Part shown: positions 5,256 through 27,904 of the stretch, in pieces
How positions within the stretch are numbered: position 1 is the first letter of the stretch
How the letters are laid out: each line of letters begins with the position of its first letter
Assembly: GCA_003158475.1 (NCBI GenBank)
Contig: PMJR01000094.1
Coordinates: 37,529-80,026, forward strand
DNA length: 42,498 bases
Reading direction: 5' to 3'
From: Ignavibacteriota bacterium
Lineage (GTDB): Bacteria > Bacteroidota > Ignavibacteria > UBA10030 > UBA6906
The notes under the pieces: generated by a model
Databases searched by the model: none
Seen by the model: the letters and a program-made list of their open reading frames with translations, nothing else
What the model was told of the DNA's origin: nothing
Translations under genes and position numbers: made by a program

Positions 5256-6260
5256 ATGACCGAAAAACGCCTCCGGGAACTGCTCGGCAACTTCAGTGGA
5301 AAACGGGTTGCCGTCGTGGGCGACCTGATGCTCGACCGCTACTACTGGGGGTCTGTGCACAGGGTTTCCCCGGAAGCACCCGTCCCAGTAGTCGAGGTTG
5401 ACACAGAATCCGTCAGGTTCGGCGGGGCGGCGAACGTTGCGAACAACATACAGGCTCTCGGCGGCAGGGCGTTCCTGATCGGTCTCGTGGGGGACGACCA
5501 TCCCGGCGTGATGTTCAGGAAGATGCTGACCGATCAGGGTCTCGAAACAGGAGGCATCGTCATCGACCCTGCCAGGCCAACCACAATCAAGACCCGCGTG
5601 ATCGCCGCCGGACAGCACGTCGTCCGGATTGACAACGAATCAAAGCAGGATTGTCCTGAGCTCCTCCGGGCAAAACTGATCGACGCGGTCCGCTCAAGCA
5701 TACGTTCTCTGGACGGCGTTATCATCGAGGATTATAACAAGGGAGTCGTCACACGCGACGTTATCCATGCAGTCATCGCCGCTGCTCAGGAACACGGGAA
5801 GCCCGTGGCCGTCGACCCAAAATTCAACAACTTCTTCGAATACAAGAACGTCACCGTCTTCAAACCGAACCGGCGTGAGGTCGAAGAAGCCGTCGGAGGT
5901 AAACTGAAAACGGTTGCAGACGTTGAGAGGGCGGGGAAGAGTCTTCTTGAATCGCTGAATGCGCAGAATGTCCTTCTGACGCGCGGAGAGGAAGGAATGT
6001 CCCTTTTTCAGTCCGGGGGGAGTGTCACGCATTTCCCGACAACAGCCGGGGCGGTGCAGGATGTCTCGGGGGCGGGGGATACCGTCATCTCCACGCTCAC
6101 GATGGCCCTGGTTGCGGGTGGCGGTATCACGGAATCGTGCATCCTCGCGAACTGTGCCGGGGGGGTCGTCGTGGGTGCCGTCGGGATCGTGCCGATACTC
6201 CCTGAACAGCTGCTCGGGGCGGTGCTTCGCAACATGGACATGTACAGGGACGGAAACTGA
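5256..6260 (+). CDS. rfaE1: D-glycero-beta-D-manno-heptose-7-phosphate kinase (HldE kinase domain as a separate protein)
   Basis: This PfkB-family kinase adds the 1-phosphate to heptose-7-phosphate on the way to ADP-heptose for the lipopolysaccharide core. The 334 residues show VVGDLMLDRYYWG near the N-terminus (about 19-31), RFGGAANVANNI (about 54-65), and the C-terminal DVSGAGDT with the catalytic base Asp275 in GAGD (272-275). The sugar and the VDPKF and FKPNRRE segments match RfaE1 rather than ribokinase. In E. coli the activity is fused to the adenylyltransferase in HldE; here the second half is the next gene, sharing a single base (TGATG). The ATG at 5256 has no clear Shine-Dalgarno. 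GmhA, GmhB and HldD are not in the window. Confidence 0.92.
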   Translation: MTEKRLRELLGNFSGKRVAVVGDLMLDRYYWGSVHRVSPEAPVPVVEVDTESVRFGGAANVANNIQALGGRAFLIGLVGDDHPGVMFRKMLTDQGLETGGIVIDPARPTTIKTRVIAAGQHVVRIDNESKQDCPELLRAKLIDAVRSSIRSLDGVIIEDYNKGVVTRDVIHAVIAAAQEHGKPVAVDPKFNNFFEYKNVTVFKPNRREVEEAVGGKLKTVADVERAGKSLLESLNAQNVLLTRGEEGMSLFQSGGSVTHFPTTAGAVQDVSGAGDTVISTLTMALVAGGGITESCILANCAGGVVVGAVGIVPILPEQLLGAVLRNMDMYRDGN

Positions 6261-6748
6261 TGGGAAAAGTCGTCTCCCTTCCCGCGCTTGCCCGCATCCG
6301 GGCCCGGCTTCGACGGCAGGGGAAGTGCGTGGTATTCACCAACGGGACGTTCGATATCGTGCACAGGGGACACGTGGAGTACCTGGGAGCGGCACGGAAA
6401 ATGGGGGACGTTCTGATCGTCGGCCTCAACAGTGACGCCTCCATTCGGCGCATCAAAGGTCCGAAGCGGCCCATCAACCGCGCAGCCGACCGGGCGGCAG
6501 TGCTTGCAGCGCTCGCCTCCGTGGATTATGTCTGTTCGTTCGGCGAGGAGACGCCCTACCGGATGATCCGGCGGCTCCTCCCCGATGTTCTCGTGAAAGG
6601 GGCCGACTGGAAAAAGGGGGCGATCGTCGGGAGTGACGTGGTCACGGAGAACGGGGGTTCGGTCAGGACCGTCCGTCTCACACCGGGGCGCTCGACGACG
6701 AACGTCATTGACCGTGTCCTGCGGGCGTATGCCCGCCGCGTGGGATGA
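6260..6748 (+). CDS. rfaE2: D-glycero-beta-D-manno-heptose 1-phosphate adenylyltransferase
   Basis: RfaE2 transfers AMP from ATP to heptose-1-phosphate to give ADP-D,D-heptose. The 162-residue protein carries the nucleotidyltransferase signature VVFTNGTFDIVHRGH, with the ATP-binding HxGH at 35-38 (HRGH), then VGLNSDASIRRIKGPKRPI and, near the end, GRSTTNVIDRV, which takes the place of the usual ISTT-type motif. Length and motifs agree with the stand-alone C-terminal half of HldE. The start codon overlaps the stop of rfaE1 by one base, so the two halves should be made in matched amounts. The tamB-like gene starts 31 bases downstream, linking heptose activation with an envelope-lipid/protein transport factor in one probable transcript. 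Confidence 0.93.
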   Translation: MGKVVSLPALARIRARLRRQGKCVVFTNGTFDIVHRGHVEYLGAARKMGDVLIVGLNSDASIRRIKGPKRPINRAADRAAVLAALASVDYVCSFGEETPYRMIRRLLPDVLVKGADWKKGAIVGSDVVTENGGSVRTVRLTPGRSTTNVIDRVLRAYARRVG

Positions 6749-6779
6749 GGGGCGCTCCGTCCGCCGGGGAGTGAGGTTC

Positions 6780-9700
6780 GTGAGAAAGATTCGCACAATA
6801 GCGCTCTACCTGCTGATCGGGATACCGCTCTTTATCGGCGTCATCATCGCGATCACGCAGACCCAGATCTTCCGCGACCGGCTTCGCGCCGCCGCGCTCT
6901 CCGAGCTTGACTCCCTCCTCAACGGTGAAGTCCACATCGGCCGTCTGGACGGCGACCTGATTACGGGGATAACGATCGACAGCATCTCGATCGACGTTAA
7001 CGACGGACCCTTCCTGCGGATCCCGCGTCTGGAGATTGCATACAACTTCTTCGCACTCCCCGGGAAGACCATTGCCATCCGGAAGCTGACGCTCACGCGC
7101 CCCGAAATCCATTTCTCCCGGGCGCGTGGCGGCCGGTGGAACCTGGCGGATCTCCTCCGCCGGCGGTCCCCTGATACCACGGCGTCGAAGCCCTTCGACT
7201 GGGTGATCGACGTCCAGCGGCTCGAGATACTCGACGGTACCGTTTCGCTGCTCGACTCTCTGTCGCTTGCCGATGAGCACCACGGGGAAGTGAAGGGCGG
7301 GGCGGTCGAGTACCATGCCTTCACGCTCGAGGGAGTCAATCTCGTCCTTGCGGCGAATATCCGGAGGGACAGGCAGCGCGTGGTAATCGCATCCTGCTCT
7401 TTTTCCTCGGCGGCACCCGATTTTCGGCTCAAGTTGCTCTGCGGTGTGTTCAGCCTCTCGCCGGGGGAGGCCCGGGTGGACAGCATGCGCATTATTACCG
7501 GAAAGACGAACCTCTCTCTCGACGCGTCAATAAAAGACATCGACCTCCTCGGCGGCATAGTCCTGCGGAACCTGAAGGCTGCACCCGTCGAGCTGTCACT
7601 CCGGGCCCGTCCGATAGACCTCGATGAGCTCAAATCGTTCCTCGATCCCCTGGAATTTCTCTCGGGGGCCGCGGAGATCACGCTGCAGGCTGCCGGGCCG
7701 TTCGGGGATCTTGACGTCAGGAAGCTGGATCTGCGTTTTGGCAAATCCTCTCTGTTCCTCAGAGGGAGTATATCCAACCTGCACGATCCGGGACGTGTCG
7801 CGCTCAATGTGAAGGTCACAGAGAGCACAGTCGACGGGACCGATGTGCAGGCGCTCCTTCCCGGTCTTGATCTCCCGGATCTCACCCCGCTGGGGACAAC
7901 CACGCTGAATCTGGAGTATGAAGGGACGCCGGCCGACATCCGGACGAAATTCCTCGTCGAGACGGCCGCCGGAAAAGTCCAGTCTTCCGGGCTCAGGCTG
8001 ACGGTCGGCGGCCCGTCGGTCCTGGGGTATGACGGGACGATACTTTTCAGGAAGCTGGATCTCGGCAGGGCACTGGCCGACGAGGGGCTCAAGAGCAATC
8101 TGAACGGGACGCTTGTGGTCCGCGGGAAAGGCGTCACTGTCCGTGGTCTGGCCTCCGTGATGGATCTTACGATAGACAGCTCCTCATTCCGCGGCCTCCC
8201 GCTGATGCGGACGCAGGTAACGCTCCAGGGTGCGGGCGGCAGGATCAGCGGAGGCACGAAAATCTCGCTCGGCGACATGCAGGCGGAGTTGACCGGGGAT
8301 GTGCAGCAGGCAACGGGAAAAGACCCCGCCTTCCATCTCGAAGGGGACGTGTCGTCTCTCAATCTCGAGAACGTACTCCACGACAGCAGTTACAACAGCG
8401 ACATCACGATGAAGCTCAAAGTCCAGGGGTCGGGATCCTCATGGGGGACCGTCAACGGCGATGTGACTGTCGACCTCTCTTCGTCGCGCTACCGGGATTA
8501 CACGCTGGACCAGGGTGTCGTCCATCTCATGCTGGATCAGAAGGACTCGTTGAACAAACGCCTCCAGTTTGAATCCAACATCGCCGATCTGACGCTCACA
8601 GGTGCATTCGACCTGAAGTACATGGCCAACCTGGCCAGGTTCGAGGCCGCCAGCCTCCGCGGGGCGATCGTCGGCAGGATTGCCCTCATCGATCCTTCGT
8701 TTCAGGCCGGGTTCAATCGCGCGGACCTGGACGCGAGCGCCCGTCCCCTCATCCTTGGGCCCCGGCATCTCGATGCGCACTACATCCTGCACGTGAAGGA
8801 TCTCGAGCCCCTTTCGTCGGCCGCCGGCAGCACGAGCTTCGACGGCACGGGGCTGCTCACCGGGACCGTCCGTGGTGGGTACGACGGACTGGCGCTCACC
8901 TCGGAGGCGGTACTGGAGGATTTCTTTTACGGAAAGGCGGATGCCGGAATGTTGATCGAGGACGGCAGGGTCCGGCTTGATGTGAGTGGTCTCGCGCCGG
9001 AATTCCCGCTCAAGGGGGCCTCGGTTCATCTCGAGGCGAGCGCCGGGAAGGTCCATGTCAACAGGAATACGCTGGACAGTCTGGACGTCACGGTCACCTA
9101 CGGAAACGAACGGGCCTCGTTTGCCACCCGCGCGATCTTCAACAATGTTTACCGCCTGGGTTCCACCGGCAGCGCGCATGTGGACGAAAACAGTTTCAGC
9201 ATCTTCCCCTCGACGCTCGATATCGCGTACCGTGATTTCCTCTGGCGTGCCGATTCGGGTGCGGCCTTGCGCGTGAACCACGTCGGTGCGGGGCTCACCG
9301 GACTGATCCTCCGGCGCGATTCGCAGTCCGTCGCCGTGAATATGAACCTCGGGCAGGGGCGTACTTTCGATGCCTCCGTCGAAGGAAAGAACCTCGATCT
9401 CGAGGGACTGAAACATCTCCTCGGGGGAGAGGAAGCCCCCGGTGAAGTGAAGACGTTTACCGGGACAGCCCGGTTGAGCGCGAAGGGGTCCGGAACGCTC
9501 TCGGATCCCGAGATGAACGCCAGCGTTGAAGCCGACAGCGTCACATTCCGTTCCCTCCCCTTCGGCCGGATCATGTCGGACCTCCGGTACCGGGACGGGA
9601 CTATCGATGGACATGTGCGGGTCGTCGAACCGGGCAAGCCCGCTGAGACGACCCCCATCATGACGATCGACGGGACCCTCCCCGTGGACCTTCGCCTGGA

Positions 9701-11318
9701 AAAATCGGGTGAAGACACCGCCCGGAAGGAAATGAACCTCCACGTTCTCGCCCACGGGGTCCAGATAAACATACTGGAGCCCCTGCTTCATACGTTCAAA
9801 GACCTGTCGGGGCTGATGACGTGCGACCTCAATCTGACCGGGCCCATGAATGGGCCGACCTACACCGGCACGCTGGGGATCTCGCAGTGTTCGTTCTTCT
9901 TCCTGCCGAACAACATCCGGTACACGCTTGAGGGGACATTCAGGCCCGGGGGGGAACGGATCAGTGTCCTCGACTGCACGGTACGAAACGTCCCCGAGGA
10001 CGTGCGTGGGGGGAGGGAGGGGATCCTGCACCTCGGCGGCGATTTTTCTCTCCGCGATCTGCGTCCCGGCGACTTTAACCTGACCGCCGCCGGCAGGCTC
10101 CTGGTCGTTAAGGAGACTACCGAAAAATCCTCTCTTGGAGTCTACGGTGATCTCTTCGTCGAGATCGGCCCCGGGCCTCTTCAGTTCACGGGAGAAATCG
10201 AGAACTCCCTCCTGAAGGGCTCGCTCAGTGTCGGGAATTCCACGCTGATCTTCCCGCCCGCACAGTCAAACGTCAAGGAAGAATCCCCGGAGTCCGTCCG
10301 GCTCGTGTTTGTGAATGACACGCTCAGGGTGACACGGAGGCCCGAACGCTCCGCCGCTGCAAAATACTTTGCCGACACATCGGGGAGCGCGGCATCTGCA
10401 GCGACAGGGGAGAAGAAAACAAAATCGTTCATGGACGGCCTTGGGTACGATCTCGATATCGATGCAAGCGGCGGGAACACCGAAATCCGCATGATATTCG
10501 ATCCTGCGACGAGCGAAGAGCTCGTGGCCGCAATTGACGGCAGGTTCACGATCACAGGCGACGGAAAGCGCTGGACGGGGGAACTGACCATCAACCGTGC
10601 GTACTACAACTTCTTCAAGCGGTTCGATGCGACCGGCAGCATTCGCTACACGGGGGATTTTCTGAATCCCGAGCTGAACATCAACGCGACGTACCAGGCG
10701 ACGCGGACGGTTCAGGATACCTCGGCCTCTTCCCCGCCGCAACGGTCGGAAAAGGTCATTGTCACACTCAAGATCAGCGGGACCCGCAAGGCCCCCAAGG
10801 TCGAATTCGGGATGACGATCAACGATGTCGATTACTACAACTACAGCGGGACGACATCGCATGATCTGCAGACCGACGCGATCTCCTTTATCGTTGCGGG
10901 GAACTTCCCGCTCAACGCTAATCAGAGAAGCGACCTCACCACCCAGGCCCAGTCGATGGCCCTGAACACCACACTCACCGGTGCGTCGTCCGTGCTTACG
11001 GAAAAGTTCTCGGCCTTCCTCAGACGGCAGACGGGAATCGATGTCAACGTCGAACTGAACGTCGCCGGAAGGGAAGCCACCGAACTCCGTCTGAGCGGCA
11101 CAGCCTGGAACGGCTACTGGCGGTACGGGGGGACCATCCTCAACGATCCCCTCGCCAATGCAAACGTCAGCATCCTCTACTCGTTCGGGACAATATTCGA
11201 CAACCCCACACTGCGCAATCTCATGTTCGAGCTTGAACGCCACGTCGAGCCATCCGTCATCACCAACGACCTCAAGCGGATCAACTCCGCCAGGGTCTTT
11301 TACCGTTTTTCATTCTAA
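6780..11318 (+). CDS. tamB: TamB/AsmA-like translocation and assembly protein (DUF490 C-terminal domain)
   Basis: The 1512-residue protein has one N-terminal membrane anchor (about 6-27: IALYLLIGIPLFIGVIIAI), then a very long run of alternating beta-strand sequence, expected to form the hydrophobic groove of TamB. It ends with the DUF490 domain (about 1170-1512), with phrases such as ELTINRAYYNFF, GNFPLNANQ, NVSILYSF and a final YRFSF. TamB bridges inner and outer membrane and helps move phospholipids and assemble some outer-membrane proteins. GTG at 6780 is preferred because GGGGAG (6766-6771) stands eight bases before it and the anchor follows at once; GTG at 6771 is possible. E. coli TamB has 1259 residues, so this is on the long side. 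No TamA with POTRA domains is seen here, but an Omp85-like barrel is encoded two genes downstream. Confidence 0.9.
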   Translation: MRKIRTIALYLLIGIPLFIGVIIAITQTQIFRDRLRAAALSELDSLLNGEVHIGRLDGDLITGITIDSISIDVNDGPFLRIPRLEIAYNFFALPGKTIAIRKLTLTRPEIHFSRARGGRWNLADLLRRRSPDTTASKPFDWVIDVQRLEILDGTVSLLDSLSLADEHHGEVKGGAVEYHAFTLEGVNLVLAANIRRDRQRVVIASCSFSSAAPDFRLKLLCGVFSLSPGEARVDSMRIITGKTNLSLDASIKDIDLLGGIVLRNLKAAPVELSLRARPIDLDELKSFLDPLEFLSGAAEITLQAAGPFGDLDVRKLDLRFGKSSLFLRGSISNLHDPGRVALNVKVTESTVDGTDVQALLPGLDLPDLTPLGTTTLNLEYEGTPADIRTKFLVETAAGKVQSSGLRLTVGGPSVLGYDGTILFRKLDLGRALADEGLKSNLNGTLVVRGKGVTVRGLASVMDLTIDSSSFRGLPLMRTQVTLQGAGGRISGGTKISLGDMQAELTGDVQQATGKDPAFHLEGDVSSLNLENVLHDSSYNSDITMKLKVQGSGSSWGTVNGDVTVDLSSSRYRDYTLDQGVVHLMLDQKDSLNKRLQFESNIADLTLTGAFDLKYMANLARFEAASLRGAIVGRIALIDPSFQAGFNRADLDASARPLILGPRHLDAHYILHVKDLEPLSSAAGSTSFDGTGLLTGTVRGGYDGLALTSEAVLEDFFYGKADAGMLIEDGRVRLDVSGLAPEFPLKGASVHLEASAGKVHVNRNTLDSLDVTVTYGNERASFATRAIFNNVYRLGSTGSAHVDENSFSIFPSTLDIAYRDFLWRADSGAALRVNHVGAGLTGLILRRDSQSVAVNMNLGQGRTFDASVEGKNLDLEGLKHLLGGEEAPGEVKTFTGTARLSAKGSGTLSDPEMNASVEADSVTFRSLPFGRIMSDLRYRDGTIDGHVRVVEPGKPAETTPIMTIDGTLPVDLRLEKSGEDTARKEMNLHVLAHGVQINILEPLLHTFKDLSGLMTCDLNLTGPMNGPTYTGTLGISQCSFFFLPNNIRYTLEGTFRPGGERISVLDCTVRNVPEDVRGGREGILHLGGDFSLRDLRPGDFNLTAAGRLLVVKETTEKSSLGVYGDLFVEIGPGPLQFTGEIENSLLKGSLSVGNSTLIFPPAQSNVKEESPESVRLVFVNDTLRVTRRPERSAAAKYFADTSGSAASAATGEKKTKSFMDGLGYDLDIDASGGNTEIRMIFDPATSEELVAAIDGRFTITGDGKRWTGELTINRAYYNFFKRFDATGSIRYTGDFLNPELNINATYQATRTVQDTSASSPPQRSEKVIVTLKISGTRKAPKVEFGMTINDVDYYNYSGTTSHDLQTDAISFIVAGNFPLNANQRSDLTTQAQSMALNTTLTGASSVLTEKFSAFLRRQTGIDVNVELNVAGREATELRLSGTAWNGYWRYGGTILNDPLANANVSILYSFGTIFDNPTLRNLMFELERHVEPSVITNDLKRINSARVFYRFSF

Positions 11319-11333
11319 GAGGAGACGCACATC
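11319..11333 (+). promoter_or_regulatory. Strong ribosome site placed on an ATC codon (RNase R start)
   Basis: GAGGAG (11319-11324) directly follows the tamB stop codon and lies six bases before ATC (11331-11333), the ideal spacing for a start. No ATG, GTG or TTG exists in the rnr frame between the tamB stop (11316-11318) and ATG 11454. The site therefore decides the start of RNase R. Confidence 0.7.
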
Positions 11334-13496
11334 GCACAGATCAAGCAACGGGTCCTCGCTTACCTCACGTCGCACGCCGCCGCGGTCACGGTCAAGGACC
11401 TCGCCAGGCACATCAAGGTCAAAGGGAAGGATGAGTTCCGCGCCCTTCGTGACATGATGGACGAGCTCGAACGGAAAGGGATCGTCACGGCTGACGATCA
11501 GGGGAAGTTCACCTACAGCCGCCGGAAGGAGAAACGGGAGAACGGGGGAAAGACGTCCAGCCGCATCAGGGGGACGCTCTTCATGACGCGCCGCGGATTC
11601 GGGTTCGTCGCAATCGAAGGGACCGACGAAGAAATCTACATCGCACCGAAATATCTTCACACCGCACTCCACAGTGATGTCGTGGAGGTCGTGCAGTTCG
11701 CCGGCCGGGCCGGCCGCGGCGGCCGGGGGAAAGGGCGTGAGGATGACAGGGCCGAAGGGGAAGTGGTCGCCATACTCGAGCGCAAGATCACGACCGTCAC
11801 CGGGCGCCTGGAAGCGGGGAGGTCGTCGTTTTTTGTCGTCCCCGATGACGAGCGCATCGCGCGCGATATCTATGTTGCGCGCGAGGACTCGCTCGGGGCA
11901 AAGCCCGGCGACAAGGTCGTCGTCCGTCTCCTCGAGTGGACCGACGAACACCTGAACCCGGAGGGGCAGATCACGGAAATACTGGGGACGGCCGGTGACG
12001 CGCGCGTGGAGGTTCTCAGCGTCGCGCGCACGTTCGGTCTTCCGGCGCATTTTCCGCCGGCGGCGGAAAATGAAGCCGCTGCGCTCAATGCCACAATATC
12101 GGGGGAGGAGATACGGGGCCGGATCGACTGCCGCCGCATCACGTGCGTCACCATCGACCCCGAGGACGCGAAGGATTTTGACGACGCGGTGTCGTACGAG
12201 CCGCTTCCGGGCGGGAGCGCCCGACTGGGCGTCCACATCGCCGACGTGAGCCACTACGTGCGTCCGGGGACGGCGCTCGATGCCGAAGCGTATGCGCGGG
12301 GGACGAGCGTCTACATGGTCAACGAAGTCGTCCCGATGCTCCCGGAGCGTCTCTCGAACGACCTTTGCAGCCTGAGAGCGGATGTCGACCGGCTGACATA
12401 CAGTGCTTTCATGGACATCGCTCCGGACGGTGCGGTCGAGCGGTACTCCATAGGCAAGAGCGTCATACACAGCGCCCGCCGGTTCAGTTACGAAGAGGTC
12501 CAGAAGGTGATCGATTCGGGGAAGGGAGAGCATGCAGAGATCATTCTCCCCCTGTTCGATCTCTCACGCGTGTTGTTGAAACGGAGGAGGAAAAACGGAA
12601 GCCTCGATTTCGACACAGGCGAGGCGAAGTTCCAGTTCGACGCGGAAGGGCTCCCATCGCGCATCATCAAGAAGATCCGGCTGGATGCACACCGGCTCAT
12701 CGAGGAGTGCATGCTCCTTGCAAATCAGACGGTCGCCCGCCACATCGGCGCGCAGAAAAAGGAAACTGAGGTGAAGCCCTTTTTGTACCGCGTTCACGAC
12801 CTTCCCGACCCGGTGAAACTTCAGGAGCTCGCCGGCTTCGTCAAACAGTTCGGGTACTCTCTGGAGGCGAAGAACGGCGTCTCCTCCCGTGAGCTGCAGA
12901 AGCTTCTTGACAGGGTGGAAGGTTCCGAAGTGGAAAACGTCATCAACGAAGTAGCGCTCCGCTGCATGGCCAAAGCGGTATATGCGACCAGGAACATCGG
13001 CCACTACGGGCTGGCATTCACGCACTACACGCACTTCACATCCCCGATCAGGCGATATCCCGACCTCGTTGTCCATCGTCTTCTGGAAGAGTACGGGAAG
13101 GGCGTCACCGGGACGCGCCTCGAGGAGATCCGGAAGGGGCTTCCCGACATCGCCCGCCAGTCCTCAGAACGGGAGAGACGTGCCAACGACGCGGAACGGG
13201 CTTCGGTGAAGGTGATGCAGGTCGAATACATGAAGCGCCACGTAGGGGATGAGTTTGGCGGCGTCGTCACGGGGGTCACGAATTTCGGCATTTTTGTTGA
13301 AATCAGCGACCTTCTCGTCGAGGGGATGATCCCGGTTCGGGAGCTCTCGGACGACTATTACGTCTTTGACGAAAAGCACTATTCGCTCCGCGGGCGTTCA
13401 CTCGGCAAGGTGTACCGGCTGGGGGACCCCCTCCGTATCAAGGTCCTCTCCGTCAACGCGGCTGGGCGAAGGATCGATTTCGCAATTGTTCCGTAA
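11331..13496 (+). CDS. rnr: Ribonuclease R, 3'-5' exoribonuclease, apparent AUC start
   Basis: RNase R degrades structured RNA from the 3' end in the cytosol. With the start at ATC 11331 it has 721 residues: a winged-helix N domain (about 1-55: IKQRVLAYL, VTVKDLARHIK, ELERKGIV), cold-shock domains (about 80-220: GTLFMTRRGFGFV), the RNB catalytic domain and a C-terminal S1 domain (about 640-720: GGVVTGVTNFGIFVEI). The RNB motif DPEDAKDFDD (276-285) supplies the four metal-binding Asp residues (276, 282, 284, 285), and HFTSPIRRYPDLVVHR is also present. Starting at the first ATG (11454) would remove 41 residues and cut the winged helix in half, although the upstream codons read as good protein. 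ATC may be a true non-AUG start or a one-base error for ATG. The gene follows tamB by 12 bases. Confidence 0.9.
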   Translation: MAQIKQRVLAYLTSHAAAVTVKDLARHIKVKGKDEFRALRDMMDELERKGIVTADDQGKFTYSRRKEKRENGGKTSSRIRGTLFMTRRGFGFVAIEGTDEEIYIAPKYLHTALHSDVVEVVQFAGRAGRGGRGKGREDDRAEGEVVAILERKITTVTGRLEAGRSSFFVVPDDERIARDIYVAREDSLGAKPGDKVVVRLLEWTDEHLNPEGQITEILGTAGDARVEVLSVARTFGLPAHFPPAAENEAAALNATISGEEIRGRIDCRRITCVTIDPEDAKDFDDAVSYEPLPGGSARLGVHIADVSHYVRPGTALDAEAYARGTSVYMVNEVVPMLPERLSNDLCSLRADVDRLTYSAFMDIAPDGAVERYSIGKSVIHSARRFSYEEVQKVIDSGKGEHAEIILPLFDLSRVLLKRRRKNGSLDFDTGEAKFQFDAEGLPSRIIKKIRLDAHRLIEECMLLANQTVARHIGAQKKETEVKPFLYRVHDLPDPVKLQELAGFVKQFGYSLEAKNGVSSRELQKLLDRVEGSEVENVINEVALRCMAKAVYATRNIGHYGLAFTHYTHFTSPIRRYPDLVVHRLLEEYGKGVTGTRLEEIRKGLPDIARQSSERERRANDAERASVKVMQVEYMKRHVGDEFGGVVTGVTNFGIFVEISDLLVEGMIPVRELSDDYYVFDEKHYSLRGRSLGKVYRLGDPLRIKVLSVNAAGRRIDFAIVP

Positions 13497-13702: not shown

Positions 13703-16700
13703 ATGAAACTGTTCGAGCGGGGCGTTGTACGCTGGGCCGCTGCCCTTTTCCTGTGCGTGTGTGCAACCGGGGCCTCCCGGGCTCAGGAAGAGCAGTTCGG
13801 GAAGAACAAGGTGCAGTACACGCGGTTCCGCTGGTCGTATATACAGTCGGATCATTTCGACATCTACTTCTCCGACGGAGGACAATACCTGGCGGAATTC
13901 ACCGCCACAGCCGCCGAGTCTGCCTACGCATCGCTCAGCAAGTCATTCCGCTACCAGCTCGTGAACCGTGTTCCCATCATCGTGTACAACTCGCACAACG
14001 ATTTCCAGCAGACGAATGTCGTGAGCGAATACCTTGAAGAGGGGATCGGCGGGGTCACGGAGCTTTTCAAGAACCGAGTCATCCTTCCGTTCGAAGGGGA
14101 GTACAGCAAGTTTCGTCACGTCATCCACCACGAGCTATCGCATGCCGTCCTCAACGACATGTTCTACGGCGGATCCATCCAGTCGATAATCTCGAACAAC
14201 ATCACGCTCCAGCTCCCCCTCTGGTTCAACGAGGGACTTGCGGAGTACGAAGCGCTGAAATGGGACACCGATTCCGACATGTTCCTCCGCGACGCCACGG
14301 TGCACGAATATCTTCCGCCAATCAGCCAGCTCTACGGGTATTTCGCTTACCGGGGGGGCCAGTCGCTCTGGTGGTACATCGCGGGAAAATACGGGGAACA
14401 GAAGGTGGGGGAGATCCTGAACCGGATCAAGAGCACGAGAAGCGTGGAAGGCGGATTCCGGGGATCCCTCGGTCTCACCCTGGAGGAGCTGAACGAGAGA
14501 TGGCAGAAGGAGATGAAGGTTATCTACTGGCCCGACATCGCCAGGCGCGAAGAGCCCGCAGATTACTCCCGGCGTCTGACGGACACGCGGAAAGACGGAT
14601 CGTTCTACAACACCAGTCCCGCCATCTCCCCTCAGGGGGACAAGGTCGCGTTCATCTCGAACCGGAATGAGTATTTCGATGTCTTCATTATGAACGCCAC
14701 GGATGGGAGCATCATCCAGAAGCTCGTGAACGGGCAGACTACGAACAACTTTGAAGAACTTCACCTTCTCACCCCGGGGATAAGCTGGTCACCCGACGGC
14801 AAGCGGATCGCGATCGCAAGCAAAGCCGGAGAACAGGATGCGATATTCCTGATCGACGTTGCCAGCGGCGAGCAGGAACAGCTGTCATTCGACCTGGCCG
14901 GGATTTTTTCGATCGACTGGTCACCGAAGGGGGACGCGATCGCATTTGTCGGGAACACGCCGAGCCAGTCCGATATATTCGTATACAACCTCAGGACAAA
15001 GAAGCTTGTCAACCTGACCGATGACATCTACAGTGACGAACGTCCTGCCTGGTCCCCCGATGGAAAGAAGCTCTACTTCTCCTCGGATCGCGGGGATGTG
15101 GTCTCGCATGACTCCACCGACATCCGCTTTCACGACTACAGCAGCTACGACATCTATTCGATCGACGTTGCCACCCGGAACATCGAGCGTTTCACCGACT
15201 GGTCCCGAAGCAACCAGGGCTCGCCGGTGGTATCGCCCGACGGGAAGAAGATTCTCTTCGTGTCCGACCGGAACGGCATCAACAACATCTACGAGCTGAA
15301 CCTGGACACGAAGAAATGGCGCCCGATCACCAATTCGCTGAGCGGCGTGTACCAGCTCTCGCTCTCGCACGACGGGAGCAAGATGGTCTTCTCGTCCCTT
15401 ATCAACGGCGGCTTCAACATTTTCCTGATGAGGAGCCCGTTCGACCGCGACATCAAGATGGCCGAACTGGAGCCGACCGAGTATTTCAAGGTGCTCTACC
15501 CGCCCGCGAAGGAGCAGGAGAAAGAGAAAGCCGTGGTGACGAAATCAGTGGCCGCCCGGCGCGACAGTTCGGCGATCCTGCAGGGTGGGGTCGTGCTTTC
15601 CGATACACTGCTTCCCCTCGCCTCGGGGAATCCCGCCGGCGAGACCCGTGACACCGTGCAGGTCGCGGGGAAACCTGCCGCAGCCGTGGACTCGGCGATG
15701 TACGGAAAAGACGTGCAGATCGACTTCAGCAGTTATGTGTTCAAGGAAACATTTACCGACGTGGTGCCGAAGGACTCGACGATCCAGAAAATGCCAAAGA
15801 TCACCGAGAACCTCGACAAGGAGGGGCACTACAGGATCAACAAGTACAAGCTCAATTTTACGCCGGACATTGTCTACGGTAATGCGGGCTACGACACATT
15901 CTACGGCGTGACCGGCTCCACGATCATGGCCTTCAGTGATCTGATGGGAGACCATCAGATCATATTCTCGACGAACCTGCTTCTCGACCTGAAGAACAGC
16001 GACTTCGCGCTTCAGTACTACTACCTTCCCAATCGCATGGATTTCGGCATCGGGGGATTCCACAGTGCGCGCTTCATCGCGCTCCTCGATCAGTACGGGG
16101 GGAGCATCTACCGCTTTCAGACGTACGGCGCCGCGCTCTCAGCGATGTACCCGTTCGACCGGTTCGACCGCCTAGAGATGGCCCTGAACTGGTTTACAAT
16201 TTCCAAGGAGAACATGGAAGTCACGGATGCGCCCGCCGAGAACCTCACGGTGCTTGTGCCTCAACTCTCCTATGTCCACGACACATCGCTCTGGGGATAC
16301 ACGGCGCCGATGCTGGGCTCGCGCTACAAGTTCATGCTGTTCGGAACGCCCAAATTCGGCCTGAGCGGGATAAGTTTCCTCAACGTTACGGGGGACTACC
16401 GGACGTACCTCCGCCTCGGACGCAACTACAGCATCGCGTTCCGCCTGGCGGGAGGAGGGAGCTTCGGCGGGAATCCCCAGAAGTTCATCGTCGGGGGGAC
16501 GTCCAACTGGATCAACAGGACATTCACCAACGACTACATCCCGTTGACGAACGCTTCGGACTACATCTTCCTCCAGGCGGGTGTCCCGCTGCGTGGATAC
16601 GACTACAACGCTCAGATCGGTTCGCACTATGGCCTGTTCAACTTTGAGCTCCGCTATCCTCTCTTCGCATTCCTTCAGGCAGGACCCCTGCCGATCGGAC

Positions 16701-16945
16701 TTCAGAGCATTGCGGGCGTCATGTTCTTCGATATGGGTTCGGCGTGGGACAGGGGGCGGGATTATGTGGCCTTCACGCATGACGAGAACGGCAGTCTCGT
16801 TTCCCGCGATCTGCTCATGGGGATGGGGACCGGCGCGCGGATATTCTTCCTTGCCTTCCTCGTCCGGTTCGATATCGCCTGGGCCTGGGACGTTCACTCC
16901 TTCTCCCCGCCCAAATATTACTTCTCACTCGGCACAGATTTCTAG
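13703..16945 (+). CDS. Outer-membrane protein fusing zinc-peptidase, TolB-like propeller and Omp85-like barrel
   Basis: The 1080-residue protein starts with a signal peptide (about 1-28, ending ASRAQ). A gluzincin-type peptidase domain (about 40-285) has HELSH (HExxH, 143-147) and, 29 residues later, NEGLAEY, with Glu177 the likely third zinc ligand, as in the peptidase-MA family. From about 300 to 580 run repeated PD40/TolB-type blades (SPDGKRIAIAS, WSPDGKKLYFSSDRG, SPDGKKILFVSDRNG). After a linker (about 590-700) comes a beta-barrel like the Omp85/D15 surface-antigen domain: RGYDYN, FNFELRYPLF, FFDMGSAWD and a terminal FSLGTDF. The barrel would sit in the outer membrane with the propeller and protease probably in the periplasm. 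Related proteins occur in Bacteroidota-type genomes, but I know of no assigned function. It lacks recognisable POTRA domains. It could process or assemble surface proteins. Confidence 0.85.
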   Translation: MKLFERGVVRWAAALFLCVCATGASRAQEEQFGKNKVQYTRFRWSYIQSDHFDIYFSDGGQYLAEFTATAAESAYASLSKSFRYQLVNRVPIIVYNSHNDFQQTNVVSEYLEEGIGGVTELFKNRVILPFEGEYSKFRHVIHHELSHAVLNDMFYGGSIQSIISNNITLQLPLWFNEGLAEYEALKWDTDSDMFLRDATVHEYLPPISQLYGYFAYRGGQSLWWYIAGKYGEQKVGEILNRIKSTRSVEGGFRGSLGLTLEELNERWQKEMKVIYWPDIARREEPADYSRRLTDTRKDGSFYNTSPAISPQGDKVAFISNRNEYFDVFIMNATDGSIIQKLVNGQTTNNFEELHLLTPGISWSPDGKRIAIASKAGEQDAIFLIDVASGEQEQLSFDLAGIFSIDWSPKGDAIAFVGNTPSQSDIFVYNLRTKKLVNLTDDIYSDERPAWSPDGKKLYFSSDRGDVVSHDSTDIRFHDYSSYDIYSIDVATRNIERFTDWSRSNQGSPVVSPDGKKILFVSDRNGINNIYELNLDTKKWRPITNSLSGVYQLSLSHDGSKMVFSSLINGGFNIFLMRSPFDRDIKMAELEPTEYFKVLYPPAKEQEKEKAVVTKSVAARRDSSAILQGGVVLSDTLLPLASGNPAGETRDTVQVAGKPAAAVDSAMYGKDVQIDFSSYVFKETFTDVVPKDSTIQKMPKITENLDKEGHYRINKYKLNFTPDIVYGNAGYDTFYGVTGSTIMAFSDLMGDHQIIFSTNLLLDLKNSDFALQYYYLPNRMDFGIGGFHSARFIALLDQYGGSIYRFQTYGAALSAMYPFDRFDRLEMALNWFTISKENMEVTDAPAENLTVLVPQLSYVHDTSLWGYTAPMLGSRYKFMLFGTPKFGLSGISFLNVTGDYRTYLRLGRNYSIAFRLAGGGSFGGNPQKFIVGGTSNWINRTFTNDYIPLTNASDYIFLQAGVPLRGYDYNAQIGSHYGLFNFELRYPLFAFLQAGPLPIGLQSIAGVMFFDMGSAWDRGRDYVAFTHDENGSLVSRDLLMGMGTGARIFFLAFLVRFDIAWAWDVHSFSPPKYYFSLGTDF

Positions 16946-17032
16946 CACCTGCCATCCGGGGAAACGAAAGCGCTTCTCGTTATCTCAACGGGGAGCTCTT
17001 TCTGCGACACGGCAATCCTCGTCGATTCAATC

Positions 17033-24692: not shown

Positions 24693-26435
24693 TTATGGCA
24701 AATCAAACGGTTGTTCCACAACCGACTCGCCTGTCCTGAGCCGGAAGCTGTACTTCCCCGGCACGAACTGCACGTTGCTCAACCCTACCACATAGATACC
24801 TGTTTCCTGCGTGTCGCTCACCAGCGTCGTGAGTATCGAGTCGCTCGATCCCGTGGGTCGTGCCAGGAGATCGAGCGTCACAAGCGTTTTCTTTGCGAGC
24901 GAGTACGCCACCATCCGTGGCGTCCCCCCCTGTGAAGAAAGTGAGGCCGAGAGTCCGGTCATCTCCGTCAGTTTTCCTCTGAGCGAAAGGAATTCCTTCA
25001 TCGTTCCGCCCGATATCTGGGACGGGGGGCCTTCGCTGTTGGCCGCGTTTATTGCACTCACGGCGTAGTAGTACGTCCCTCCGGAAGGCACTCTGACGGT
25101 ATCCGTGCATGACGCGGTCGATCCCGGAACCACCTGTGAGATGGCCCGGGGATCGTCGAACGGGATCTGCGGCGATGTCCATCTGTACAGAACGTAGCGT
25201 CGCGCTCTCGTTCGTTCCGCCACCGTCTGGGGGGGGATCCATTGAATATCGAAGACGTTCGTGGTGATCTCTGTGACAGCCGGCTGGAGCGGCGGAGGGG
25301 GAGAACTGGCGTCTTTCCAGGGCATTGGGGGTATGAGTGCCGGTGTTGCGTAACGCCCTCCGGAGAGTCCAGCGGCGCGAATGCTCTCATATCGGAAGTA
25401 CGACTGCCCCGCGTTGCCCGCCTTCCGCGATATGTCGATCTGCCGGGGGACTTCCCTCGCGACATCGTCCTTGTAGGCGCCGATCCCTGCATAAACGTGC
25501 CGGCCCCCCGCAATTTGCTGCCAGCCCGGAACGAGCGCCGCGTAATCCGGTCCGCCCCTGGAACTTCCTATGGCCCAGTAGACCTGAGGGGACACATAGT
25601 CCATCTTCCCGGTTTTCAGCCAGGTCCGGGTGTCCTGGTAGTATTCTCCGGCAGCGGCAGAGACAAACCCGCTGTCAGATCCAAAAATTCCGAGCGGGGA
25701 AGCTCCGATTTTCAGCAGGGGGCGAAGTGCTGTCAGCCGGTCGTAGCACTCCGCAACGAACCTGTCCAGGTTTGATTTTCTCCATCTGTCCCTCGGGATC
25801 CCGAGGCCGTATTTCTTATAGGAATCTCCGTCGGGGAAGTTTCGTCCCGGGTACCGGAGGTAGTCGAAATTGATCCCGTCGAGGTCATACTTCCGCGCGA
25901 TGTCCATCACAACGTTCAACAGGAATTTTTCCACTTCGGGGATCCCCGGGTCCAGCCATCCCTCCCCGTGGTCGCTGAATATCCAACCTGGATGGGCCCG
26001 CGCCAGGTGGGGAGGGGTGCTCAGCGGGACTGATCCGCTCCCCCTCACTTTGTAGACATTCACCCATCCGTGAACTTCGAGGCCGGCCTCGTGCGATTCG
26101 TTGATCAGGAATGCAAGCGGGTCCCACCCGGGGTCCTTTCCGAGCGTCCCGGTGAGGTTCTCGGCCCACGGTTCATACGCGGACCGGTAGTATGCGTCCC
26201 CGCGGGAGCGTATCTGGAAAAAAATCGTGTTGAAGTTGAGTGACTTGAGGTGGCGGACGATCTCGCGAAGCGATGCCTGCTGTTCAGTCCTGTCAGTGCT
26301 CCGCGGCCAGTCGAGGCCGGACGCGGTGGTGAGCCACACGGCGCGTACCTCCCGTTTCGGGGTTGGCGGTGGCTGTGCGACGGCTTCAGAAGCGAAGAGT
26401 ACGAGAGAGAAGAGAAGGAGGGGCCGGATGGGCAA
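24693..26435 (-). CDS. Secreted glycoside-hydrolase-like protein GHL10 (DUF187) with fibronectin type III-like C-terminal domains
   Basis: Starting at TTG 26435 it has 580 residues with a short signal peptide (PIRPLLLFSLVLFASEAVAQ). A GHL10 barrel (about 25-345) reads EVRAVWLTTASGLDWP, LNFNTIFFQIRSRGDAYY, HGWVNVYKVR, DGINFDYLRYPG and KMDYVSPQVYWAIG. The Asp/Glu-rich strand ends resemble the active site of this family, which includes E. coli DigH (YddW), a hydrolase of denuded peptidoglycan. A linker and Fn3-like domain follow (about 375-480: VTEITTNVFDIQWIPP, RYVLYRW, TYYYAVSAIN), then a C-terminal all-beta segment (about 495-580) like a sorting or carbohydrate-binding domain. GTGs at 26477 and 26489 lie on or upstream of the predicted promoter and are unlikely starts; an ATT after GAGGAG is a third option. 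It lies upstream of dctPQM on the same strand. Confidence 0.82.
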   Translation of the reverse strand: MPIRPLLLFSLVLFASEAVAQPPPTPKREVRAVWLTTASGLDWPRSTDRTEQQASLREIVRHLKSLNFNTIFFQIRSRGDAYYRSAYEPWAENLTGTLGKDPGWDPLAFLINESHEAGLEVHGWVNVYKVRGSGSVPLSTPPHLARAHPGWIFSDHGEGWLDPGIPEVEKFLLNVVMDIARKYDLDGINFDYLRYPGRNFPDGDSYKKYGLGIPRDRWRKSNLDRFVAECYDRLTALRPLLKIGASPLGIFGSDSGFVSAAAGEYYQDTRTWLKTGKMDYVSPQVYWAIGSSRGGPDYAALVPGWQQIAGGRHVYAGIGAYKDDVAREVPRQIDISRKAGNAGQSYFRYESIRAAGLSGGRYATPALIPPMPWKDASSPPPPLQPAVTEITTNVFDIQWIPPQTVAERTRARRYVLYRWTSPQIPFDDPRAISQVVPGSTASCTDTVRVPSGGTYYYAVSAINAANSEGPPSQISGGTMKEFLSLRGKLTEMTGLSASLSSQGGTPRMVAYSLAKKTLVTLDLLARPTGSSDSILTTLVSDTQETGIYVVGLSNVQFVPGKYSFRLRTGESVVEQPFDLP

Positions 26436-26466
26436 TGAGATTTCCGAAATAATGAATCTCCTCGCT

Positions 26467-26495
26467 AATATACTCACGCCGTGAGGCACAATCAA
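26467..26495 (-). promoter_or_regulatory. Predicted promoter of the GHL10 gene (TTGATT-17-TATATT)
   Basis: On the minus strand TTGATT (26495-26490) and TATATT (26472-26467) are 17 bases apart. The transcript would begin near 26460, downstream of both possible GTG starts, so the start codon must be further on. Its -35 box lies seven bases from that of the divergent radA promoter. Confidence 0.55.
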
Positions 26496-26502
26496 CGCCC
26501 GG

Positions 26503-26531
26503 TTGTAAGTCTCTCCCGTCGTCGGTATATT
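26503..26531 (+). promoter_or_regulatory. Predicted radA promoter (TTGTAA-17-TATATT), probably leaderless
   Basis: TTGTAA (26503-26508), 17 bases, TATATT (26526-26531). Only five bases separate the -10 box from the radA ATG (26537), so the transcription start should fall on or next to the ATG and the mRNA would lack a ribosome site. Confidence 0.6.
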
Positions 26532-26536
26532 AAGCA

Positions 26537-27904
26537 ATGAGCAGGGACAAAGTACATTCCCGATACGTCTGCCAGTCCTGCGCGTACGAATCCGCCCGGT
26601 GGGCCGGGAAATGTCCGAATTGCGGGGAGTGGAACACATTCGTCGAGGAGATCCTCCCTGCCAGACGTCATCAGGCGCGGGGGGGGGGAGAAGCGAAGTC
26701 CGCGGGACCTGTCTCCATCGGAGCTGTGGACATTGCCCCCGAGCCGCGTTCGGCGGTCGGGATTCCCGAATTTGATCGGGTGTTGGGAGGGGGCATCGTA
26801 CCCGGCTCCGTGGTTCTTGTCGGCGGCGACCCCGGGATCGGCAAGTCGACGCTGATGATGCAGATGGCGTCGTCACTCCGTTGCGTAACGCTCTACATCA
26901 CCGGGGAGGAATCTGTCGGCCAGATAAAGCTCCGCGCCGAGCGGCTCGCGGTCAAGCCGCCGGAGTCGCTTCTCCTCCTTGCTGAAACCAACCTTGACGT
27001 CATACAGGCGGTGATCGCGAAGCAGCCGCCGGACCTCATCATCGTGGATTCCATCCAGACGATGTTCCGCCCCGATCTTGAAAGCGCTCCCGGGACTGTG
27101 AGCCAGGTGCGTGAAGCAACTGCCACATTCATGCGCCTGGCGAAGACGAGCGGCATCCCGGTGTTTCTTGTCGGACACGTGACAAAAGAGGGTATCATTG
27201 CGGGGCCCAAAGTGGTGGAGCATATGGTGGATACGGTGCTCCAGTTCGAGGGGGAACGGCAGCACGCATTCCGGATCCTGCGGGCGATGAAAAACCGGTT
27301 CGGCTCGACCAACGAGATCGGAGTCTTCGAGATGAACGACGGGGGACTTCGTGAGGTGGCAAATCCTTCCGAGGTTTTCCTTGCCGAGAGGAAATCCGGC
27401 GCTTCGGGATCCGCCGTCGTGGCGAGTGTCGAGGGGACCCGCCCCCTCCTTGTTGAGGTCCAGGCGCTCGTTGCACCGACAAGTTATGGGGTCCCGCAGA
27501 GGAGTTCCACCGGGTTTGATTCCCGGCGGCTGCAGATGCTCCTTGCAGTGCTCGAAAAACGGGCGGGTCTCCGTCTCGGTCAGTACGACGTGTTCGTCAA
27601 TGTTGCCGGCGGAGTCCGGATAGATGAACCTGCCGTGGATCTGGGGATGGCGCTTGCCATCGTCTCGAGCCTGCGGGACATCCCCGTCGATTCCACGGCG
27701 GTGGCAATCGGCGAAGTAGGCCTTGGCGGCGAGATACGGAGCGTCAGCCAGGTCGAAAAGCGGATCGGTGAAGCCGGGAAACTCGGTTTCACGCGCTGCC
27801 TTCTCCCGCGCAGTAACGCGCGCAATCTCACCCGCCGGAACGGCGTCGAACTCATTGAAATAGAAACAATCGACCAGGCGATCACAGCCATGGTCGGGTC
27901 CTGA
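26537..27904 (+). CDS. radA: DNA repair protein RadA/Sms
   Basis: RadA is a RecA-like ATPase that helps branch migration during recombinational repair. The 455-residue protein has all family parts. A C4 zinc motif (C12-x2-C15 ... C26-x2-C29, ending CPNCGEWN) is followed by the RecA-like core with Walker A GDPGIGKST (97-105), and a Walker B-like LIIVDSIQT. The RadA-specific KNRFGS is at 252-257. The Lon-like C-terminal domain (about 290-455) contains SSTGFDSRRLQMLLAVLEKR and DLGMALAIVSSLRD. It opens a + strand run and is divergent from the GHL10 gene. The ATG has no Shine-Dalgarno and lies right after a -10 box. Assignment is certain. Confidence 0.97.
   Translation: MSRDKVHSRYVCQSCAYESARWAGKCPNCGEWNTFVEEILPARRHQARGGGEAKSAGPVSIGAVDIAPEPRSAVGIPEFDRVLGGGIVPGSVVLVGGDPGIGKSTLMMQMASSLRCVTLYITGEESVGQIKLRAERLAVKPPESLLLLAETNLDVIQAVIAKQPPDLIIVDSIQTMFRPDLESAPGTVSQVREATATFMRLAKTSGIPVFLVGHVTKEGIIAGPKVVEHMVDTVLQFEGERQHAFRILRAMKNRFGSTNEIGVFEMNDGGLREVANPSEVFLAERKSGASGSAVVASVEGTRPLLVEVQALVAPTSYGVPQRSSTGFDSRRLQMLLAVLEKRAGLRLGQYDVFVNVAGGVRIDEPAVDLGMALAIVSSLRDIPVDSTAVAIGEVGLGGEIRSVSQVEKRIGEAGKLGFTRCLLPRSNARNLTRRNGVELIEIETIDQAITAMVGS

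Follow-up and report, generated by a model that had tools for sequence, protein, structure and literature searches.

A zinc peptidase domain, a TolB-like propeller and an Omp85-type barrel fused in a single protein encoded near tamB in Ignavibacteriota

The gene and its locus

The gene described here encodes a protein in which a zinc peptidase domain, a beta-propeller and an outer-membrane barrel of the Omp85 type are joined in a single chain of 1080 residues. It lies in a window of 42,498 nt, the whole stretch of DNA that was analysed, on contig PMJR01000094.1 (positions 37,529-80,026, forward strand) of assembly GCA_003158475.1, from an Ignavibacteriota bacterium of the lineage UBA6906. An earlier sequence-only reading, made from the sequence and a list of its open reading frames (ORFs) and numbered, like all nucleotide positions below, along the whole window, had drawn attention to this fusion and to its closeness to tamB. 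The gene order in the window is hldA (5256-6260), hldC (6260-6748), tamB (6633..11318, plus strand), encoding an AsmA/TamB-like bridge protein (PF04357), rnr (11454..13496, plus strand), encoding RNase R (TIGR02063, 728 bits), the peptidase-propeller-Omp85 gene (13703..16945, plus strand, ATG start) and then a convergent two-component pair. Only rnr separates the gene from tamB. No PF04357 match other than this tamB was found in the genome.

Pfam and an AlphaFold2 model agree on the three domains, all encoded on the plus strand. Curated cut-offs are exceeded by Peptidase_MA_2 (residues 71-271, 50.5 bits), by PD40 (105 bits, six stretches over residues ~300-580) and by Omp85 (residues 795-1080, 34.9 bits). 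The model of the full chain, built from a 69-sequence alignment, has a mean predicted local distance difference test score (pLDDT) of 81.5 and a predicted template modelling score (pTM) of 0.79. It places the peptidase at residues 35-290, the propeller at about 300-585, a disordered segment at 612-688 and 16 long strands at 719-1076. The domain order is consequently signal peptide, gluzincin peptidase, six-bladed TolB-like propeller, disordered linker and 16-stranded Omp85-type barrel. The signal peptide (residues 1-27, 13703..13783) is of the signal peptidase I (SPase I) type (..GASRA/QEE, the slash marking the cleavage site) and is followed by a mature start conserved in the family alignments (A/Q..FGxNK(V)); inspection by eye revealed no lipobox in it. 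The three domains, the export signal of the chain and the positions of the four motifs singled out by the sequence-only reading (HELSH, NEGLAEY, RGYDYN and FFDMGSAW) were all confirmed.

The peptidase domain and its active site

The peptidase domain (residues 31-296, 13793..14590) is identified by Peptidase_MA_2 and by a domain model. Modelled alone, it reaches a pLDDT of 86.9 and a pTM of 0.84, and its closest structural neighbours are an M9 collagenase (Z 16), the M30 lugdulysin (Z 15) and M1 aminopeptidases (Z 13-14). As modelled, the domain is a gluzincin fold of clan MA(E), and it carries within that fold the HExxH motif and the downstream Glu ligand that constitute the signature of this clan. 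A profile search of the PDB sequences with the same domain returned no match, and its relation to known gluzincins is therefore visible by fold only. No M48 or TPR match, as would be expected of a BepA-type protein, appeared in the window protein up to E 1.

The motif HELSH (residues 143-147, 14129..14143) would provide two zinc-ligand histidines and the general-base glutamate, and NEGLAEY (residues 176-182, 14228..14248) the third ligand, E177. H143, E144, H147 and E177 are invariant in 54/54 full-length members, as is E181, and the first four, together with Y216, are invariant throughout a 69-row alignment. Y216 belongs to AYRGGQ (residues 215-220, 14345..14362) and is probably the catalytic tyrosine that stabilizes the transition state, since its spacing from E144 (72) is close to that of E242-Y315 (73), the pair named in the lugdulysin mutant 7bb9. 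Judged from these alignments, the active site is conserved throughout the clade of the window protein, hereafter the active clade. The sequence-only reading had staked itself on zinc ligands conserved in the family and on a barrel in the predicted structure, and both were found.

Propeller, linker and barrel

The six-bladed propeller (residues 297-585, 14591..15457) is recognized by PD40 and by its structural match to TolB (Z 28, root-mean-square deviation 2.2 over 244 residues). The TolB equivalog TIGR02800 scores 148.8 bits over the propeller part only, below its cut-off of 343 bits. The linker that follows (residues 592-707, about 110 residues, 15476..15823) is disordered and cannot be aligned, with a pLDDT below 50 over residues 612-688, and its length varies from 69 to 163 residues in the active clade. 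No POTRA model was found among the Pfam matches up to E 1, and the propeller and the barrel are joined by this disordered linker only.

The barrel (residues 719-1080, 15857..16942) has 16 strands in the model and ends in an aromatic F. It matches the BamA of D. radiodurans (Z 25.4) and TamA (Z 23), and its PF01103 score exceeds the 24-bit cut-off. In a Pfam scan of 40 members at E<=0.001, PD40 and Peptidase_MA_2 were detected in 40/40 but Omp85 in only 7/40; the barrel call rests therefore mainly on the model and on the motifs. Two of these are characteristic of Omp85 proteins and are invariant or nearly so across 69 members: RGYDYN (residues 964-969, 16592..16609), part of the loop-6 motif (V/L)RG(F/Y) in the form LRGYDYN (963-969), and FFDMGSAW (residues 1008-1015, 16724..16747), the FxDxGxxW strand motif. 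The identification of the product as TamL was rejected, given a lipo_TamL score of 11.2 bits against a cut-off of 400 bits, the lack of POTRA and a signal of the SPase I type in which no lipobox was seen by eye.

Distribution of the family

A family match is present in 41/41 near-relative genomes and, at E<=1e-20 with paralogues counted, in 101/148 genomes of a phylum sample. The nearest named sequences, 87-91% identical, come from Ignavibacteriae metagenome-assembled genomes from fen. Peptidase-propeller-Omp85 proteins constitute an old and widespread family. The sequences come mostly from metagenome-assembled genomes, and the counts given throughout, taken from related genomes, are not independent. 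Among the family f20 genomes listed (2-3 Mb), no member is found while most have a TamB, apparently through a lineage-wide loss. The source genome itself encodes a second peptidase-propeller-Omp85 protein on contig C124 (L006/L041, about 1100 residues, HEFTH ... AEGVAQ), which represents a paralogous family whose zinc ligands are spaced differently.

The sequence-only reading had proposed a device for surface-protein maturation, secretion or assembly. A related possibility is a type Vd-like secretion, in which the barrel would deliver its own peptidase and propeller to the surface as a surface protease or a maturation device. A signal peptide, an enzyme, a linker and a barrel do stand in a single chain, and secreted collagenases are among the nearest structural relatives of the peptidase domain. 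Pfam detects, however, neither the patatin domain nor the POTRA of type Vd (PL-Omp85) proteins, and two folded globular domains would need to pass through a closed 16-stranded barrel. The single-copy, near-universal and vertical distribution beside tamB and rnr is also unlike that of a secreted effector. Moreover, in the model case, PlpD, the enzyme stays on the periplasmic side (PMC11116518). This secretion route is thus very improbable, and surface-protein maturation is at best partly supported, as no sequence feature places the peptidase outside the cell. By analogy with PlpD, a periplasmic topology appears likelier than surface exposure.

A sister clade with a pseudo-peptidase

Full-length, collinear relatives forming a sister clade were found in 67/80 genomes sampled from a second class, that of genome G087, which is assigned to the Bacteroidia from its place in the phylum and its gene content. 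For classes other than that of the window, family numbers are the only designation unless a near-copy bears a name. In a tree computed from the propeller and the barrel, with the peptidase columns omitted, the active family, the pseudo-peptidase family and three paralogous families appear as separate single branches; the trees of this work are quick searches with support from the Shimodaira-Hasegawa-like approximate likelihood ratio test (SH-aLRT) only.

In 30 aligned members of this sister clade, HELSH is replaced in every one: H143, E144, H147 and Y216 are found in 0/30, and E177 in 6/30. W174, G178, G219, P172 and N105 are retained in 30/30, and the Omp85 residues R964, E982, R984, D1010 and G1012 in 29/30. 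Of the 37 positions of the peptidase domain that never vary in the active clade, 20 are each retained in at least half of these members, and this domain therefore still looks folded. The expectation that the three domains always travel together holds in the sister clade as far as the domains are concerned, but the active site has been lost there as a whole. HExxH is found in nearly all the paralogues examined, so that a single loss in the Bacteroidia form would be the simplest explanation. Proteolysis cannot therefore be the central function across the wider family, and the sequences most likely mean that one clade has conserved catalysis while the other can dispense with it.

These data bear on the possibility that the protein is a processing peptidase for particular exported clients, such as propeptides, lipoproteins or secretion-system cargo, with the barrel as an anchor or an exit devoid of any insertase role. 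The strict conservation of the active site agrees with it, and Omp85 barrels have been reused for new functions, as in PlpD (PMC11116518). Against it, R964, E982, D1010 and G1012 are kept where the enzyme is dead, which suggests that the barrel function is the older one, and a dedicated processing role is consequently quite unlikely.

The two clades share in addition a short linear motif of the linker, DFSSYVF in the window protein (residues 674-680, 15722..15742). The pattern [D/N]-hydrophobic-x-[N..]-[Y/F]-x-F was counted in three sequence sets and occurs in 52/69 Ignavibacteria-type, 9/11 other-family and 24/30 pseudo-peptidase members (85/110 in total), against means of 0.70, 0.06 and 0.06 (sum about 1) in the same sets after shuffling. 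It was devised after part of the counted sequences had been viewed and the counts are descriptive, though the gap to the shuffled values is large. The motif is absent from the 12 paralogues examined, all of which have short linkers. At the sequence level, it supports the kinship of the active and pseudo-peptidase clades and points to a partner or a self-binding site that would be common to both. Its survival in a clade deprived of catalysis makes it the foremost candidate for a peptide that docks a partner or binds the seam. In PlpD, a beta-signal-like peptide binds the first strand of its own barrel (PMC11116518), which offers a lead only for the linker motif.

The surroundings of the pseudo-peptidase genes were examined at 12 loci (L223-L234). 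The recurring neighbours are a metallo-beta-lactamase-fold gene, divergent at 7/12 loci, a permease gene of the TauE/SafE type at 6/12 and one further neighbour family.

Conservation of the linkage with tamB

The gene-order link to tamB is conserved well beyond the source genome. Fifty-two Ignavibacteria-type loci have 5 kb or more of upstream sequence, and tamB lies within 12 kb in 38 of them; rnr directly precedes the gene in 50/66. Elsewhere in the phylum, 20 loci of other families show a linked tamB in 10/20 and an adjacent rnr in 10/20, often with few bases between the open frames; seven of these ten tamB-linked loci fall in two families with tamB packed behind rnr.

Such a link could also be devoid of functional meaning, hldA, hldC, tamB, rnr and the peptidase-propeller-Omp85 gene being an inherited block kept by co-transcription. 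The presence of rnr, an unrelated housekeeping gene, would be accounted for in this way, as would the 14/52 Ignavibacteria-type and 10/20 other-family loci where the link is absent, and the linked TamB copies do not form one clade. On the other hand, the association with tamB survives a block inversion at locus L072 and the absence of rnr at locus L156, where tamB is divergent. In the propeller and barrel tree, the basal split of the active clade has tamB-linked members among the deep branches of either side, while flanking genes beyond the block seldom accompany it (the two-component pair in 10-12/80 related loci, aroK in 4/80). An inherited block without functional meaning is therefore rather doubtful, though it deserves to be taken seriously.

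Neither a separate 'TamB2'-type clade nor a distinctive C-terminus was retained for the linked TamBs, as the tree splits them over at least two groups. The Ignavibacteria TamBs, including that of the window, end in a canonical aromatic-ended strand. In genomes with two TamBs (families f25/f26, loci L235-L254), the linked copy ends earlier in PF04357 (at about 365-370 of 381) and continues as a low-complexity tail, and the unlinked copy terminates in a strand whose last residue is aromatic. In a relative of the same order (G030:C16:352107-355847), TamL and TamB of the Flavobacterium TamL2/TamB2 type form a strong neighbour pair, which is unusual for this order and was perhaps acquired horizontally.

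Several other features of the window were recorded. A SurA/PpiD-like double-rotamase chaperone is encoded at 1074-3206, upstream of the hld-tamB block, and was seen beside the block at none of the 80 related loci. A GHL10 glycoside-hydrolase-like protein (24693-26876, minus strand) adjoins a TRAP transporter (DctM/DctP); about ten relatives also have TRAP transporter genes near the block, and four have the GHL10 gene there. A terminator-like stem-loop stands directly 3' of the peptidase-propeller-Omp85 gene (16972..16996, plus strand), in a window where the density of such stem-loops does not exceed chance. Three minus-strand ORFs were discarded as spurious: 14135-14764 and 16172-16897, inside the gene, which show no sign of being genes, and 11310-12533, overlapping rnr, which has no Pfam match.

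A possible role in outer-membrane biogenesis

The intact set of loop-6 Arg and strand Asp-Glu residues, the BamB/TolB-like propeller, the zinc peptidase and the tamB linkage together suggest an outer-membrane biogenesis device. In the reading that we favour, with a probability of roughly 0.42, the window protein is an Omp85-superfamily biogenesis factor whose barrel is fused to accessory functions facing the periplasm, and which works with or near TamB. The barrel would sit in the outer membrane, with the peptidase and the propeller in the periplasm. Its seam may handle incoming outer-membrane proteins or lipids in the manner of BamA or TamA, while the propeller would recruit clients or partners, as BamB or TolB does, and the peptidase would trim or clear stalled or misfolded clients at the barrel, as BepA does. 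The nearby-encoded TamB could supply the bridge to the inner membrane, with the linker motif as a candidate docking or seam-binding peptide. In Bacteroidia, the peptidase domain would persist as a non-catalytic scaffold, and this pseudo-enzyme fits a helper role that has outlived catalysis.

Several observations weigh against this reading. The protein has no POTRA, the domain by which TamA-type proteins meet TamB; neither tamB nor rnr was found near the pseudo-peptidase genes (0/12 loci examined); the link to tamB is missing at a part of the active-clade loci, as counted above; and, rnr being a housekeeping gene, a reason other than a shared function may keep the block together. No experimental study of the family was found in the open-access literature. 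TamB also has alternative possible partners, as the genome contains other POTRA-type Omp85 proteins and a BamA. Its seven PF01103 matches comprise, by sequence reading, a five-POTRA-like BamA (L002), three POTRA-type proteins (L001, L003 and L007), a patatin-type protein (L004), the window protein and its paralogue. The statement that TamA is not seen is thus true of the window but does not extend to the genome as far as Omp85 proteins in general are concerned. The best lipo_TamL match in the genome (1e-26) stays below the cut-off. The patatin-type L004, on contig C54, bears POTRA and resembles PlpD.

The same observations can be arranged around an outer-membrane receptor for TamB, dedicated mainly to the transfer of lipids, or of lipids and proteins. 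The propeller and the linker motif would dock the bridge, and the peptidase would be regulatory or structural, hence its decay in Bacteroidia. The conserved tamB linkage, the catalytic residues dispensable in the sister clade, the linker motif kept in both clades and the lack of POTRA are all consistent with such a receptor. It is unlikely nonetheless: the pseudo-peptidase clade is unlinked to tamB, the invariance of all the inferred catalytic residues in the active clade indicates that catalysis is under selection there, and the POTRA-type Omp85s of the genome could serve TamB, as TamL does in the Bacteroidota species studied (PMC12045153). A further development of the biogenesis reading, in which the protein would be the dedicated TamB partner of Ignavibacteria and related lineages, is an equally slender prospect. 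It would be a third, POTRA-less machine resembling the translocation and assembly module (TAM), docking through the propeller or the linker motif, with a built-in proteolytic quality control that the ancestor of the Bacteroidia form would have given up in a single step.

How outer membranes are assembled outside Proteobacteria is only beginning to be understood, and Bacteroidota have turned out to differ greatly in this respect (PMC12611786, PMC12578637, PMC12045153). A near-universal barrel-propeller-protease fusion, its naturally dead sister clade and its linker peptide make three questions testable, namely the service of TamB, proteolysis in assembly and the partner of the linker peptide. 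The pseudo-enzyme clade is frequent among the sampled Bacteroidia, and culturable relatives should therefore exist for genetics.

Comparison with known systems

The M9 collagenases, the M30 lugdulysin and the M1 aminopeptidases share with the window protein the fold, the HExxH motif with its downstream Glu ligand and, likely, the catalytic Tyr. They are only 12-15% identical to it, and the window protein is predicted to be tethered to the outer membrane. PlpD, of the PL-Omp85 type, is comparable in that an enzyme, shown to be periplasmic, is fused N-terminally to a 16-stranded Omp85 barrel (PMC11116518); it differs by its patatin lipase, its POTRA, its homodimeric state and the lack of a propeller (PMC11116518). 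TamA and TamL share the Omp85 barrel (TamA at a Z of about 23) and the genomic link to tamB. They carry, however, three POTRAs, and TamL is a lipoprotein (PMC12045153), where the window protein has a peptidase and a propeller instead. An identity with the subunits BamG/H/M/P of the Bacteroidota beta-barrel assembly machinery, or with the propeller protein BamI, was rejected: the text of the two papers searched shows neither a peptidase nor an Omp85 fusion among them, and BamM is a lipoprotein with a peptidyl-prolyl isomerase fold.

A further parallel is found in E. coli, where BamA, BamB and BepA, a barrel insertase, a propeller and a zinc metallopeptidase, are separate proteins meeting at one site, whereas the three components are fused in the window protein. 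BepA is both an assembly helper and a protease, acting on clients at the BamA seam (PMC8423444). It belongs to M48, whereas the window peptidase is a Peptidase_MA_2 gluzincin near the M9, M30 and M1 folds, and the propeller of the window protein is TolB-like.

In the open-access literature on Omp85 proteins with peptidase MA, PD40, HExxH or a propeller, only the classification of 2014 proved directly relevant. It defines WD40-Omp85 as one of ten Omp85 subfamilies and likens it to a BamA-BamB fusion (Heinz & Lithgow 2014, PMC4104836). The window family shows the same N-terminal propeller most like TolB, the same C-terminal Omp85 barrel and the same lack of POTRA, and it is almost certainly included in this subfamily; the 'Metallo' subfamily of the same classification carries a different N-terminal domain (PF00149). 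The sequence-only reading was right that no function had been assigned, even if the propeller-Omp85 architecture was already catalogued. The word 'peptidase' does not occur in the text of this classification, which is silent on the peptidase domain, its loss in one clade, the tamB linkage and the linker motif (PMC4104836). The architecture is thus already known, and what is new is the peptidase domain, the pseudo-enzyme clade, the linkage with tamB and the linker motif.

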